From assembly GCF_029625215.1 (NCBI RefSeq), contig NZ_CP121197.1, positions 3,162,001 through 3,226,000 of the forward strand: a DNA stretch of 64,000 nucleotides. The letters run 5' to 3'. A program made the translations under genes and the position numbers. Of this stretch, positions 43,291 to 48,935 are shown in pieces. Each line of letters starts with the position of its first letter. Positions within the stretch are counted from its first letter, which is position 1. The notes beneath the pieces are model-generated. The model worked only from the letters and a program-made list of their open reading frames with translations, did not search any database and was not told the DNA's origin. The DNA is from Aurantibacillus circumpalustris (GTDB taxonomy: Bacteria > Bacteroidota > Bacteroidia > B-17B0 > Aurantibacillaceae).

Positions 43291-44034
43291 ATGAAAATCT
43301 TAGTTGCCATTAGTAATGTACCCGATACCACCACAAAAATTCAGTTTACGGATGGTGATACAAAGTTTAATGCTGCCGGAGTAACCTTCGTAATCAACCC
43401 TTACGATGAGTGGTATGCACTTGTTAGAGCTTTAGAATTAAAAGAAGCGAATCTTGCTGAAAAAGTGACTATTATTCACGTTGGTTTAGCTGATAGCGAT
43501 GCAACAATCCGTAAAGGATTAGCGCTTGGTGCAGATGATGCCGTGCGTATTGATTCTGAAGGGCCTGATGCACTTTTTGTTGCAGAACAAATTGCTGCCT
43601 ATGCTAAAACAAATGTTTATGACTTAATACTGGTTGGAAAAGAAACGATTAATTACAACGGATCTTCTGTTGGCGGAATGATAGCAGGTGTTTTAGATCT
43701 TCCATTTGTGTCATTAGCAACAAAATTAGAGCTTGCTGCTAACAAAGCAACTATTGAACACGATATTGATGGTGGTACTCAAATTGTGGAATGTGAATTA
43801 CCAATGGTTATTAGTTGTGCAAAAGGAATGGCTGAACAACGTATTCCTAACATGAGAGGGATTATGGCAGCGCGTACTAAACCTTTAACTGTAACGCCTG
43901 CAGTTGCTGCAAGTCCATTAACATCCATTAAATCATTTGCTTTAAGTCCAGGTCGTACAACCGTTAAGATGATAAGTGAAGATAATTTGGATGAGTTAGT
44001 GAATTTGCTTCACACTCAGGCTAAGGTTATATAA
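43291..44034 (+). CDS. etfB: Electron transfer flavoprotein subunit beta
   Basis: 247 residues. The N-terminal MKILVAISNVPDTTTKIQF and FVINPYDEWYALVRALELKE are typical of the beta subunit, as are GKETINYNGSSVGGMIAGVL and CAKGMAEQRIPNMRGIMAAR (recognition loop end). With EtfA it carries electrons from acyl-CoA dehydrogenases to the quinone pool by ETF:quinone oxidoreductase. The usual direct etfB-etfA junction is interrupted here by a four-helix-bundle gene. Confidence 0.92.
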   Translation: MKILVAISNVPDTTTKIQFTDGDTKFNAAGVTFVINPYDEWYALVRALELKEANLAEKVTIIHVGLADSDATIRKGLALGADDAVRIDSEGPDALFVAEQIAAYAKTNVYDLILVGKETINYNGSSVGGMIAGVLDLPFVSLATKLELAANKATIEHDIDGGTQIVECELPMVISCAKGMAEQRIPNMRGIMAARTKPLTVTPAVAASPLTSIKSFALSPGRTTVKMISEDNLDELVNLLHTQAKVI

Positions 44035-44485
44035 ATTATTGATTTCTTGAATTTTTGATTTTTAGAATGGAGAATAATACAATAAATACTGAATTTGCAG
44101 ATGCTTTTAAGGCGAGAACAAAAAAGCAAGCTGTAAGTATTATTAAATTTCTAAAAAACATTAAATCGAACGAGGAAATAATGGTAATCAAAAATCAACT
44201 AATTAAATGCTGTACATCTGTAGCCGCCAATTATAGAGCTGCTTGTAGAGGAAGATCAAAAGCCGATTTTATTTCAAAACTCGGAATAGTGCATGAGGAA
44301 GCGGATGAAGTGCTTTTTTGGTTAGAGTTGTTAGCTGACCTTAATTACGCGTCACCTGAACTTGAAAAATTAACAAAAGAAAGCGATGAGATTTTGAGAG
44401 TTGTGGCTAAATCTGTTGCAACATCAAGAAACAACTTAGTAAATTCAAAAAATAAGACATTAACAAATTCAAAAAATTAATAATT
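44034..44485 (+). mobile_element. IVS-like insertion bounded by 21-bp inverted repeats
   Basis: AATTATTGATTTCTTGAATT (the first 20 bases of 44034-44054) matches, in inverse orientation, 44465-44485; 19 of 21 positions are complementary. Between them lies only the four-helix-bundle gene. The unit starts at the last base of the etfB stop codon and ends 19 bp before etfA. The layout resembles 23S rRNA intervening sequences, which carry the same protein family and fold into a stem cut by RNase III. Confidence 0.6.
44067..44480 (+). CDS. Four-helix-bundle protein (S23/IVS-encoded family)
   Basis: 137 residues from ATG 44067; the TTG at 44055 is a weaker choice. FADAFKARTKKQAVSIIKFL, then IKNQLIKCCTSVAANYRAAC and FISKLGIVHEEADEVLFWLE are the pattern of the family first found as ORFs in 23S rRNA intervening sequences. 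The family forms homopentamers of four-helix bundles and its role is unknown. It lies in the same direction between etfB and etfA, inside inverted repeats, so it looks like a small selfish insertion that the operon tolerates. Confidence 0.82.
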   Translation: MENNTINTEFADAFKARTKKQAVSIIKFLKNIKSNEEIMVIKNQLIKCCTSVAANYRAACRGRSKADFISKLGIVHEEADEVLFWLELLADLNYASPELEKLTKESDEILRVVAKSVATSRNNLVNSKNKTLTNSKN

Positions 44486-44504
44486 CTAAAATTCAACAAA
44501 TAAT

Positions 44505-45485
44505 ATGTCAGTTCTAGTATTCACAGAAATAAATAAAGGCCGCGTAAAAAAAGCATCTTTAGAATGTATCAATTATGCTTCTAAAATTGCTGAATTAACC
44601 GGTTCTACAGTCACAGCTTTAGTAAACAATGCTGATGCAGCTCAGTTGGAAGAAATTGGTAAAGCAGGTGCTTCTAAAATATTATCCGTTAAGAATGATA
44701 AACTTAGCAGTGATAGCATGGCCATTAGCGCTGCCGTTGAACAAGCAGCAAAGGCTGAAAATGCAAAAGTAATTGTATTTGCTTTTGATATTGTTGGTAA
44801 AGCAGTGGCGCCAAGACTTTCTGCTAAATTAAAAGCAGGTTTAGTTGCCGGTGCGGTTGATTATCCAACTGTAAACGGTGCAGGACTTGAAGTAAAGAAA
44901 AATGTATTTTCCGGAAAAGCTACTGCATTATATAGTATTAACAGCGACATTAAAATTATTTCTCTTCTTCCAAATAGTTTCCCTGTAACTGCAGGTGAAA
45001 ACAAAGCAACTGTAAGCGATTTCGCGGTAGATCTTTCTGCTGTTAATTCTAAAATTGTTGTAAAAGAAGTTAAATCTAATGATGCAGGTGGCATGACTCC
45101 ATTACCTGAAGCTGAGTTAGTTGTAAGTGCCGGTAGAGGTTTAAAAGGACCTGAGAACTGGAAAATAATTGAAGATCTAGCTGCATCTCTTGGTGCAACG
45201 ACTGCTTGTTCACGTCCCGTTGCCGACATGCATTGGAGACCACATCATGAGCATGTTGGACAAACAGGTGTTGCTATTCGTCCGAATTTATACATTGCCG
45301 TTGGAATATCAGGTGCTATACAGCATTTAGCAGGTGTAAACGGTAGTAAAACAATTGTAGTAATTAATAACGATAAAGAAGCGCCTTTCTTCAAATCTGC
45401 GGATTATGGTGTGCTTGGTGATGCTTTCACTATTGTACCTAAGTTAACAGAGGCGATTAAAAAATTCAAGGCTAATCAAAACTAA
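44505..45485 (+). CDS. etfA: Electron transfer flavoprotein subunit alpha
   Basis: 326 residues. The N-terminal domain begins MSVLVFTEINKGRVKKASLE; the C-terminal FAD domain holds VVSAGRGLKGPENWKIIEDL, ATTACSRPVADMHWRPHHEH, VGQTGVAIRPNLYIAVGISG and IQHLAGVNGSKTIVVINNDK, all conserved. It completes the ETF with EtfB. Its transcript comes from the etfB promoter across the four-helix-bundle insert. Confidence 0.92.
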   Translation: MSVLVFTEINKGRVKKASLECINYASKIAELTGSTVTALVNNADAAQLEEIGKAGASKILSVKNDKLSSDSMAISAAVEQAAKAENAKVIVFAFDIVGKAVAPRLSAKLKAGLVAGAVDYPTVNGAGLEVKKNVFSGKATALYSINSDIKIISLLPNSFPVTAGENKATVSDFAVDLSAVNSKIVVKEVKSNDAGGMTPLPEAELVVSAGRGLKGPENWKIIEDLAASLGATTACSRPVADMHWRPHHEHVGQTGVAIRPNLYIAVGISGAIQHLAGVNGSKTIVVINNDKEAPFFKSADYGVLGDAFTIVPKLTEAIKKFKANQN

Positions 45486-47978: not shown

Positions 47979-47984
47979 AGACTA

Positions 47985-47992
47985 TAAATTTA
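47985..47992 (-). promoter_or_regulatory. Near-consensus -7 box (TAAATTTA) of bshA
   Basis: One mismatch to TAnnTTTG, 6-nt gap to ATG 47976-47978. The octamer is its own reverse complement. Confidence 0.3.
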
Positions 47993-48047
47993 CAAATTAT
48001 AAAAGAGAATAATGTTAAGGTAGTTTAAAGGGTGGGCCTTTCGTGGA

Positions 48048-48248
48048 GACACTAATTGCACGAATTTCACTAATCTGTGTTTGCTAGGAAGACGCGAATG
48101 GCACCCATTTCACGAATCTGTGTGTGTTAGGACGAAAGGACAATAATCCAATCTGTCGGAGTCGCGGATTTCACTAAATCGAAACTTAATAATACCAAAC
48201 CGTAATGCTATTTTAGTTCTTCTTCGTGTAATTCGTGCAATTAGTGTC
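48048..48248. repeat. MITE-like element with 19-bp perfect terminal inverted repeats
   Basis: GACACTAATTGCACGAATT (48048-48066) and its exact reverse complement (48230-48248) bound 201 bp of non-coding DNA between bshA and queE. Internal CACTAATCTGTGTTTGCTAGG is repeated with few changes about 40 bp later. There is no reading frame. The motif type (CGTGAAATTAGTG-like) is familiar from dispersed repeats in environmental Bacteroidota. It ends 20 bp before the queE -7 box. Confidence 0.75.
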
Positions 48249-48268
48249 GCTTTTGAAGAAACTATCCT

Positions 48269-48276
48269 TAAATTTG
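48269..48276 (+). promoter_or_regulatory. -7 box (TAAATTTG) of queE, leaderless layout
   Basis: An exact TAnnTTTG with a 5-nt gap to the TTG start at 48282. TTTG at 48252-48255 is too near for a -33 element. Confidence 0.5.
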
Positions 48277-48281
48277 CAGCC

Positions 48282-48935
48282 TTGAATTACAAATTACATA
48301 GTTTATCTGAAGCCGATGATGTGCTTTTAAAAGCTGGGAAACTACTGCCTTTGATGGAGGAGTTCTATACCATTCAAGGTGAGGGATTTAATACCGGTAA
48401 AGCTGCTTATTTTATTCGGATTGGTGGTTGTGATGTTGGTTGTCATTGGTGCGACGTGAAAGAAAGTTGGGATGCGAACATTCATCCTTTAACTCCGATT
48501 GAAAAAATAATTGAAAATGTAATTGCTTATAAAGCGAATAGTGTTGTGGTTACTGGCGGTGAGCCTTTGATCTATAATCTAGATAGTCTTACCGCTTTAT
48601 TAAAACAAAATAATATTGAAACGTTTATTGAAACGTCTGGTGCTTACACCTTAAGTGGCAACTGGGACTGGATTTGCCTTTCTCCTAAAAAAACGATGGC
48701 GCCTTTAAAAGAGGTGTATTCAAAAGCAAATGAGTTAAAAGTGATTATTTTTAATAAGCATGATTTTGTTTGGGCCGAAGAGCAAGCTGCTCTGGTTGGT
48801 AAGGACTGTTATCTTTATTTACAACCTGAATGGAGTAAACATGCGCAATTGGTTCCAGAAATTATTGAGTATGTAAAGGATCATCCGAAATGGATGATTA
48901 GTTTGCAAACGCATAAGTACATGAATATTCCTTAG
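48282..48935 (+). CDS. queE: 7-carboxy-7-deazaguanine synthase
   Basis: A 217-residue radical SAM enzyme of queuosine synthesis that turns 6-carboxytetrahydropterin into 7-carboxy-7-deazaguanine. The cluster motif is CDVGCHWC (Cys50, 54, 57; CX3CX2C). EFYTIQGEGFNTGKAAYFIR before it and VVTGGEPLIY after it (SAM-binding GGE) are conserved. The start is TTG 48282, 5 nt after the -7 box. No other queuosine genes are in the window. Confidence 0.9.
   Translation: MNYKLHSLSEADDVLLKAGKLLPLMEEFYTIQGEGFNTGKAAYFIRIGGCDVGCHWCDVKESWDANIHPLTPIEKIIENVIAYKANSVVVTGGEPLIYNLDSLTALLKQNNIETFIETSGAYTLSGNWDWICLSPKKTMAPLKEVYSKANELKVIIFNKHDFVWAEEQAALVGKDCYLYLQPEWSKHAQLVPEIIEYVKDHPKWMISLQTHKYMNIP

Follow-up and report, generated by a model that had tools for sequence, protein, structure and literature searches.

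An S23 gene between inverted arrays of short repeats at the etfB-etfA junction of Aurantibacillus circumpalustris, and similar units between operon genes elsewhere

Described S23 elements and the unit between etfB and etfA

Published accounts of intervening sequences (IVSs) that carry a gene of the S23 (23S_rRNA_IVP) family go back to 1993 (citations in PMC3936711 and PMC4990558). Here we analyze an S23 gene that stands between etfB and etfA, the genes of an electron transfer flavoprotein (ETF), in a stretch of 64,000 nucleotides (nt) of A. circumpalustris DNA (NZ_CP121197.1, positions 3,162,001 to 3,226,000; hereafter the window). The closest described unit is the 23S IVS of Coxiella burnetii, which according to PMC4990558 is a 428-nt unit with a sense S23 open reading frame (ORF) and an inverted stem that is cut by RNase III. 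Tandem heptamers, whose number varies among strains, lie just before the ATG of that ORF, and its S23 protein is argued to be probably not made, the gene being in decay (PMC4990558). In bacteria of the Candidate Phyla Radiation (CPR), 23S_rRNA_IVP ORFs are described in insertions at several sites of 16S and 23S rRNA (PMC11270868).

S23-family genes are also reported from cas loci, where they are read as having a CRISPR-Cas-associated function (PMC3936711), and PF05635 is described as resembling Avd of diversity-generating retroelements (PMC10053308). Heptameric intergenic repeats form a separate literature, namely: GGGAATC in Xanthomonas and GGGGA(C/T)T in Nostoc, preferentially between aligned ORFs and with 70 and 75 convergent (inverted) pairs in two Xanthomonas genomes (PMC4692102), and TAACTGA in Beggiatoaceae (PMC4679880). 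The main texts of these two papers do not mention S23 or four helix (term search). Our searches, which covered an open-licence library, turned up no report of S23 elements flanked by inverted arrays within operons, and none that joins IVSs, heptameric repeats and cas S23 genes.

At the etfB-etfA junction, gene order and profile matches (PF05635 at E 9e-16 and 58.5 bits, where the cut-off is 33.8; the four helix bundle protein model TIGR02436 at E 4.3e-23 and 81.6 bits, where it is 24) agree with the original prediction, made from the sequence alone, of an S23-family gene between the two ETF genes (Table 1). Its start is the ATG given there, and TTG 44055 is also open. The predicted 21-bp inverted repeats are present as well, with 19 of 21 positions complementary (90%) and the left one starting on the final base of the stop codon of etfB. 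On the right, the core arm extends over the final codons of S23 and its stop, and the outer part of that arm reaches into the etfA start. The description as a 21-bp repeat needs to be amended: the inverted pair is real, but the arms are not one 21-mer. Both are imperfect arrays of period 8 (lag-8 self-match 0.62 left and 0.59 right), and a longer gapless inverted pair surrounds the core (44029-44068 / 44467-44506, 40 nt, 78%). S23 is the sole gene between the arms, and no transposase of the element's own is present. A small IVS-like unit, i.e. an S23 gene within inverted repeats, does then lie in a protein-coding operon, as had been proposed.

Table 1. Coordinates of the S23 unit, its host genes and the related palindromes
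Feature	Position	Strand	Basis
etfB, upstream host gene	43291-44034	+	ETF domain PF01012, E 8.8e-28
Left arm, imperfect array of 8-nt units TTATTGAT TTCTTGAA TTTTTGAT TTTTAGAA	44029-44068, core 44034-44054	+	
S23 / 23S_rRNA_IVP four-helix-bundle gene, 137 aa	44067-44480	+	Profiles, AlphaFold2 model, fold match
Right arm, inverted counterpart of left arm	44465-44506, core 44465-44485	+	
etfA, downstream host gene	44505-45485	+	ETF domain PF00766, E 8e-33
Palindromes of the window arm family	G000:C1:2011573-2011633 and 2898390-2898450 (L365-L367, L369)		

The AlphaFold2 model of the S23 protein (single chain, 18-sequence alignment) has four helices with a mean predicted local distance difference test score (pLDDT) of 93.1. 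The best solved fold found by Foldseek is 2rld of the S23 family (E 5.1e-6), which assigns the model to the four-helix bundles. Further matches are Xcc0516 (2gsc), for which a pentameric assembly has been reported, and phage Avd 4dwl (E 9.4e-3, template modelling (TM) score 0.80 by target length).

As in the account of the Coxiella IVS, the window element has a sense S23 ORF within an inverted-repeat stem, and ahead of that ORF the stem contains short units repeated in tandem (with a period of 8 in the window copy and of 7 in most of its array-flanked kin), whereas it lies in a protein operon and its S23 is under purifying selection (see below). Because its location is outside 16S and 23S rRNA genes, we do not file it as an rRNA IVS. 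Shorter ORF-less inserts, a further likeness to what is found here, are described at some CPR sites; the CPR insertions as a whole, however, lie within rRNA genes, and homing-endonuclease ORFs are dominant in them (PMC11270868). The four-helix-bundle fold is shared with Avd (4dwl, 8ub7), while identity to it is ~17% and the scanned window neighbours include no reverse transcriptase family. With the heptameric intergenic repeats, the arrays around S23 genes have 7-nt units in intergenic DNA in common; the published studies, in contrast, centre on one heptamer type, and the S23 arrays are many private ones. Placement between operon genes is shared with the S23 genes described in cas loci, and the pattern seen here suggests general operon residence.

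A REPtron is likewise a gene flanked by inverted short palindromic repeats (repetitive extragenic palindromes, REPs), accompanied by gene-less repeats throughout the genome; its RAYT protein is a nuclease and its REPs share conserved sequence. The units studied here differ in that the gene is S23 and not RAYT, and in that their arrays share a period and not a sequence. We know of no catalytic site in S23.

Inverted arrays around S23 genes

Bracketing by inverted arrays is seen in most of the S23 genes tested and in few other genes. For each copy, the left flank of the S23 gene was scored against the reverse complement of the right flank, the control being the right flanks of other copies, and a copy passes if its own arms beat 95% of its own swaps. 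In the window the arms score 35 against a median of 18 for arms swapped between copies, and 0.5% of the copy's own swaps reach 35; among 31 window genes of 100-400 aa tested alike, S23 included, the S23 gene alone passes 0.05. The genus set comes from 115 PF05635 places, from which 6 partial or edge-cut ones were left out, and has 110 rows, L067 and L103 being one gene counted twice. The named set is drawn from named genomes, in which 584 loci were confirmed and the best 80 used; their titles span Bacteroidota, Proteobacteria, Planctomycetota, Acidobacteria, cyanobacteria, Clostridia and candidate phyla. Arms could be scored in 107 of 110 genus copies (3 are short of flank), 29 of 31 class copies and 79 of 83 named copies; for plasmids, 6 of 32 records were read. 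The own-arm median is 29 vs. 18 for swapped arms in the genus, where 70 of 107 copies pass, and 35 vs. 16 among the named copies, where 66 of 79 pass. In the class, 22 of 29 copies pass, and 4 of the 6 plasmid copies have arms above all their swaps. Non-S23 genes pass the same test in 8 of 119 cases in the genus loci and 7 of 101 in the named loci.

Residence between co-directional genes is a strong tendency of S23 genes, and not a law. Same-strand neighbours are found on both sides in 104 of 110 genus rows, 25 of 31 class copies and 62 of 83 named copies, and the upstream neighbour is on the same strand in all 109 genus cases read; the baseline in the window is 21 of 48 genes for both sides and 30 of 48 for the upstream side. 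The ten recurrent genus sites precede genes for a 2-oxoacid dehydrogenase acyltransferase, a sigma-54 activator, gyrase B, NADH dehydrogenase chain 4L, a cysteine-rich-domain (CCG) protein, a 2Fe-2S subunit, an ABC ATPase, an Fe-S assembly protein, UDP-glucose dehydrogenase and a DUF1365 protein. No rRNA (Rfam) is found around the S23 genes in the 7 own-genome loci or in any of the 80 named loci.

Three plasmid loci may be described individually. On an Anabaena sp. 90 plasmid, S23 lies between cas6 and cas4 with inverted ACAGGTG arrays, and on a Nostoc edaphicum plasmid it lies between the ribonucleotide reductase beta and alpha genes, in opposite orientation and with inverted TAGGGAG arrays. 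A second cas6-S23-cas4 plasmid copy, from Pseudanabaena, shows no arms.

What the arms have in common is their period. In the 156 arms of the 78 genus copies that score at least 24, self-match has peaks at lag 7 (0.471 vs. 0.326) and at lag 14 (0.436). A period of 7 fits best for 107 of these 156 arms, for 36 of 48 class arms selected in the same way and for 94 of the 132 arms of the passing named copies; another 27 of those 132 have a best period of 8. Left and right arms have the same period in 67 of the 78 genus copies, an agreement that is in part built in, because the arms were picked for matching. The repeat units vary from copy to copy and the arm sequence is private to lineages, so the terminal repeats lack the common sequence expected of an insertion sequence. 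A common heptad motif was considered and is not claimed, its signal being weak and uneven (the null reached it 0, 1, 20, 26, 33 and 42 times of 300 in six cross-tests); the published GACAGAT unit is nothing special under the shared-motif test. The idea that the arrays act as three-frame stop cassettes was dropped, as the excess is weak and is absent in class left arms. Exceptionally long arrays surround an S23 gene on a Planctomycetota contig (L313), where inverted ACGGTGG-type arrays align over well over 100 nt with an own score of 176.

The arms are private to each copy's lineage and matched to each other, whether by turnover or by separate arrivals. This is seen when, for pairs of copies at the same site (104 copies with same-strand neighbours, no score threshold), the degree to which one copy's own two arms match is compared with the match of corresponding arms between copies. 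At S23 identities of at least 0.9, the within-copy match is ahead in 0 of 10 pairs (mean 77.3 between genomes vs. 28.4 within), and at 0.7-0.9 in 15 of 97. The two are even at 0.6-0.7 (21 of 41), while own arms lead in 85 of 100 pairs at 0.5-0.6 and in 62 of 64 below 0.5 (means 27.3 within and 17.5 between). A score-thresholded version of the comparison agrees. Arms may in some cases have been carried along with the gene between sites, as some pairs of copies have arms in common (L050/L078, score 39; L067/L103, 43); most pairs do not (mean 18.5, 197 pairs).

If RNA pairing were the selected trait, G-U mismatches would be expected to be tolerated over A-C ones. The arms show no such excess, with G-U-type vs. 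A-C-type counts of 75 vs. 79 in the genus, 27 vs. 21 in the class and 61 vs. 63 in the named copies scoring at least 24. None of the three sets thus gives a sign of selection for an RNA stem, and the pairing looks like that of a DNA-level inverted repeat. The RNA fold of the window region is no better than that of shuffles (z -0.50), and in the centroid fold the window arms are paired with each other. Genus arm mismatches of the A-A and G-A types number 175 vs. 85 of the U-U and U-C types, i.e. both arms are A-leaning on the sense strand. Template switching between inverted copies is described as homogenizing arms (PMC8604942) and as creating or mending hairpins (PMC8794818).

Residence, loss and gene-less arrays

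In the genus, S23 is found in 2 of 30 etfB-etfA junctions, those of the window and of G028, and the other 28 of the 30 junctions read are without the gene, in line with the original reading. For the class, 87 ETF loci were taken as part of 142 genomes with a match, 2 of them without a readable etfB end and one, L165 of G085, added knowing its S23. The conservation among distant relatives that would have refuted the original reading is not seen: S23 occurs in 0 of the 84 readable junctions taken blind, the 85th being that of G085, a member of another family. L165 has the order etfB-S23-etfA with long near-perfect arrays of short units. Its S23 is only 16% identical to that of the window and is closest to genus copies at another site; its presence at this junction is therefore likely to represent an independent arrival.

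The window and G028 S23 genes form one clade (support 100/99), and their hosts are not sisters in the EtfB+EtfA tree. Two species near G028 retain a truncated 3′ part of S23 together with the right arm in the ETF gap (L026, 108 vs. 60.9 in shuffles; L025, 74 vs. 49.9; 0 of 500 shuffles reach the score in either case), and it is the persistence of these relics that shows loss near G028. No similarity to the element is found in the ETF gap of L020, a third species of the G028 group, nor in those of L011, L012 and L023, with L033 borderline. In L017, the closest relative of the window, the gap has no gene and holds a stretch similar to the window right arm (58 vs. 34.1 shuffled, 0 of 500) and unlike the G028 right arm (75 of 500 shuffles reach its score); this gap is possibly a pre-insertion state. 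From these comparisons the ETF copy looks like an old resident that is often lost, and the clade, its non-sister hosts and the relics near the second host do not support the recent insertion that had been proposed.

Two other ETF gaps are of interest in their own right. The 94-bp gap of L024 (G007) is a gene-less inverted array (self-match 33 vs. 14.3 shuffled, 0 of 500), and the 101-bp gap of L013 (G035) has an insert unlike either ETF element (not above shuffles). The ETF gap seems to collect small inserts.

At the gyrB-type site, 30 loci were read, of which 2 lack a downstream gene, and S23 is present in 8 of the remaining 28 junctions. G018 holds a 3′ relic of S23 there (100 vs. 35.4 shuffled, 0 of 1000), and several other junctions appear, by eye and unscored, to hold gene-less inverted arrays. 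In L353 (G019) the gap is 369 bp with no S23 gene recognized, its relatives having either S23 or a short gap.

On the genus S23 tree, the site labels need 36 changes (minimum 34, shuffled 87.2), in an alignment of few columns that leaves many forks unresolved. Most genus sites carry their own S23 lineage and a few hold two. Judged from the tree, copies would mostly stay put, seldom change site, and get lost. S23 is under purifying selection: the median dN/dS (nonsynonymous to synonymous divergence) of same-site pairs is 0.08 for 63 pairs with measurable dS, at S23 identities of at least 0.72, with saturated-dS pairs excluded from the median; dS is above 1 in many pairs. Between the window and G028, 91 of 124 aligned residues are identical, with dN 0.213 and dS 1.94, the latter near saturation.

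A DNA search of the own genome with the window element returns itself and one 116-nt match within another of the genome's 7 PF05635 places. A 22-nt piece of the window arm (at most 3 mismatches) occurs at five other places in this genome, against 0 for the reversed control. Four of the five form two gene-less palindromes (Table 1) that, with their surroundings, are identical across the 3,022 bases read; the scanned one lies between tRNA-Glu and 23S rRNA, and since the surroundings are identical the palindrome lies in two rRNA operons. Its similarity to the window left arm is 36, reached by 0 of 1000 shuffles, with a maximum of 34 among 105 other genus left flanks. The suggestion that other copies carry the same repeats is not supported in that form: S23 gene copies differ in repeat sequence and share period and inversion, and kin of the window repeats do exist elsewhere in the genome, but gene-less.

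Other arm families were searched for likewise. That of the gyrB-type site has 7 hits in the own genome and 9, 3 and 17 in three genomes that have similar arms (3, 2, 2 and 0 for the reversed control); in four genomes whose arms differ it has 1, 0, 0 and 0 (1, 2, 0 and 0 for the reversed control). The counts include the S23 copies' own arms, which make up 2 of 7 in the own genome and ~6 of 9 in G008. One own-genome hit of this family lies between 23S and 5S (L419), and another presumably does so too, because it has the same offset from the second rRNA-operon palindrome. A third family has 20, 16 and 4 hits in three genomes that carry arms of this kind, and five others have 3, 2, 2, 1 and 0, the reversed control giving 1 in G021, 1 in G006 and otherwise 0. 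The hits overlap within arrays. S23 is present in 0 of 30 arm-family loci read, and 24 of them have a partner arm within 130 nt scoring at least 24 (no shuffle control).

The window itself also contains a gene-less inverted pair (48048-48073 / 48223-48248, 26-nt arms GACACTAATTGCACGAATTTCACTAA) in the intergenic region 47979-48353, with units of ~9 nt by eye. It has the top z (12.1) among the scored intergenic inverted repeats of the window.

Readings of the element

On balance, and with modest confidence, we favour an IVS-type element living outside rRNA, whose S23 would be its own maintenance or spreading factor and whose mirrored ends would be kept alike at the DNA level. Its unit is the S23 gene bracketed by inverted arrays of 7-8 nt repeats, and template switching between the inverted copies, together with slippage of the short units, may keep the arms alike. 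S23, a structural relative of Avd, may serve the element by binding its own nucleic acid and helping its copying or toleration, so that a gene-bearing copy would support gene-less derivatives as well. Such units would survive only where an extra hairpin in the transcript does little harm, i.e. in operon gaps, rRNA spacers and the tips of rRNA helices, and the hairpin may be cut by RNase III, as it is in rRNA.

Several observations weigh against this reading. No movement has been caught, i.e. there is no clean pre- and post-insertion pair with a target duplication; the gene-less gaps examined for such duplications are short and AT-rich, and in part they are relics. The S23 tree, for its part, points mainly to copies that stay at their sites. 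A gene useful to the host would also account for the purifying selection and for the loyalty to sites. No reverse transcriptase or nuclease of the element was recognized by Pfam beside the window copy, among the ETF genes and 7 further neighbours, one of which has no family. In the 95% swap test, 37 of the 107 copies in the genus fail, as do 7 of 29 in the class and 13 of 79 in the named set; only 4 of the six plasmid copies exceed all swaps, one has no arms, and two oppose both neighbours, so that sense orientation is not universal. The same-site pairs are non-independent, and separate arrivals at one site would also give unlike arms. The template-switching events described in PMC8604942 had shorter spacers, as opposed to ~400 bp here. 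Finally, a fourth arm family has few hits (G006 4, G034 2, G025 1, G005 1 and none in four others, with one reversed-control hit each in G005 and G034), and the gene-less arrays could be low-complexity DNA, given reversed controls of 0-3 hits per genome and, in G005, 2 control hits vs. 3 for the pattern itself.

The strongest competitor is a regulator serving the host, with S23 and its arrays domesticated to tune operon expression, for example by RNA processing or binding at the intercistronic stem, and kept by host selection. The median dN/dS of 0.08, the site-specific S23 lineages, the position of the arms at both gene edges and the core nature of many sites (acyltransferase, gyrase B, NADH dehydrogenase chain 4L, 2Fe-2S subunit, ABC ATPase) all speak for it. 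Its distribution is patchy, however, at the ETF junction (2 of 30 in the genus, 0 of 84 in the class plus the one added knowingly) and at the gyrB-type site (8 of 28); relics at both sites show loss, and without a G-U excess there is no sign of selected RNA pairs. We regard a host regulator as unlikely.

The recent insertion of a small mobile unit, with RNase III cutting its RNA stem and thereby uncoupling the etfB and etfA messages, is in our estimate more unlikely still. The inverted repeats are able to pair and do so in the centroid fold, RNase III excision of an S23-bearing IVS is published (PMC4990558), and the ETF gap of the closest relative has no gene; against this, the relics and the shape of the clade suggest long-standing residence followed by losses, the fold z is -0.50 and there is no wobble excess. 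Least probable of all, and already disfavoured, is a mutational by-product, in which slippage and template switching make inverted arrays, S23 being no more than a small gene able to tolerate them. Such a process would account for the lack of wobble excess and for gene-less inverted arrays, and template switching is known to homogenize arms and make hairpins (PMC8604942, PMC8794818), but it leaves unexplained the specificity for S23 (66 of 79 vs. 7 of 101 in the named set, 70 of 107 vs. 8 of 119 in the genus) and the prevalence of a 7-8 nt period in the genus, class and named sets.

Extending the favoured reading of a self-maintaining IVS-type element, one may tentatively imagine S23 elements as a widespread mobile or self-maintaining class without a transposase, with ends set by period (7-8 nt) and mirror symmetry and not by sequence. 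S23, perhaps with a reverse transcriptase acting in trans, would drive or protect a continual rewriting of the ends that keeps them matched, gene-less derivatives would share the ends of their source, and rRNA IVSs, heptameric repeats and cas-associated S23 would be faces of the same class. We consider this extension possible but doubtful.

S23-bearing IVSs have so far been treated as rRNA features, with no agreed function. If the pattern holds, many S23 genes lie outside rRNA, in mirrored short-repeat arrays between operon genes, and S23 plus inverted heptads would be a simple diagnostic of them. IVSs, heptameric intergenic repeats and the S23 genes of cas operons would then become linked, and the arms would offer a tractable system for studying how sequences change while staying complementary. 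For annotation, caution is called for, as an S23 gene embedded in an operon may not share that operon's function. With the same unit of gene and mirrored repeats found between genes in several phyla, the role of such pieces becomes testable.

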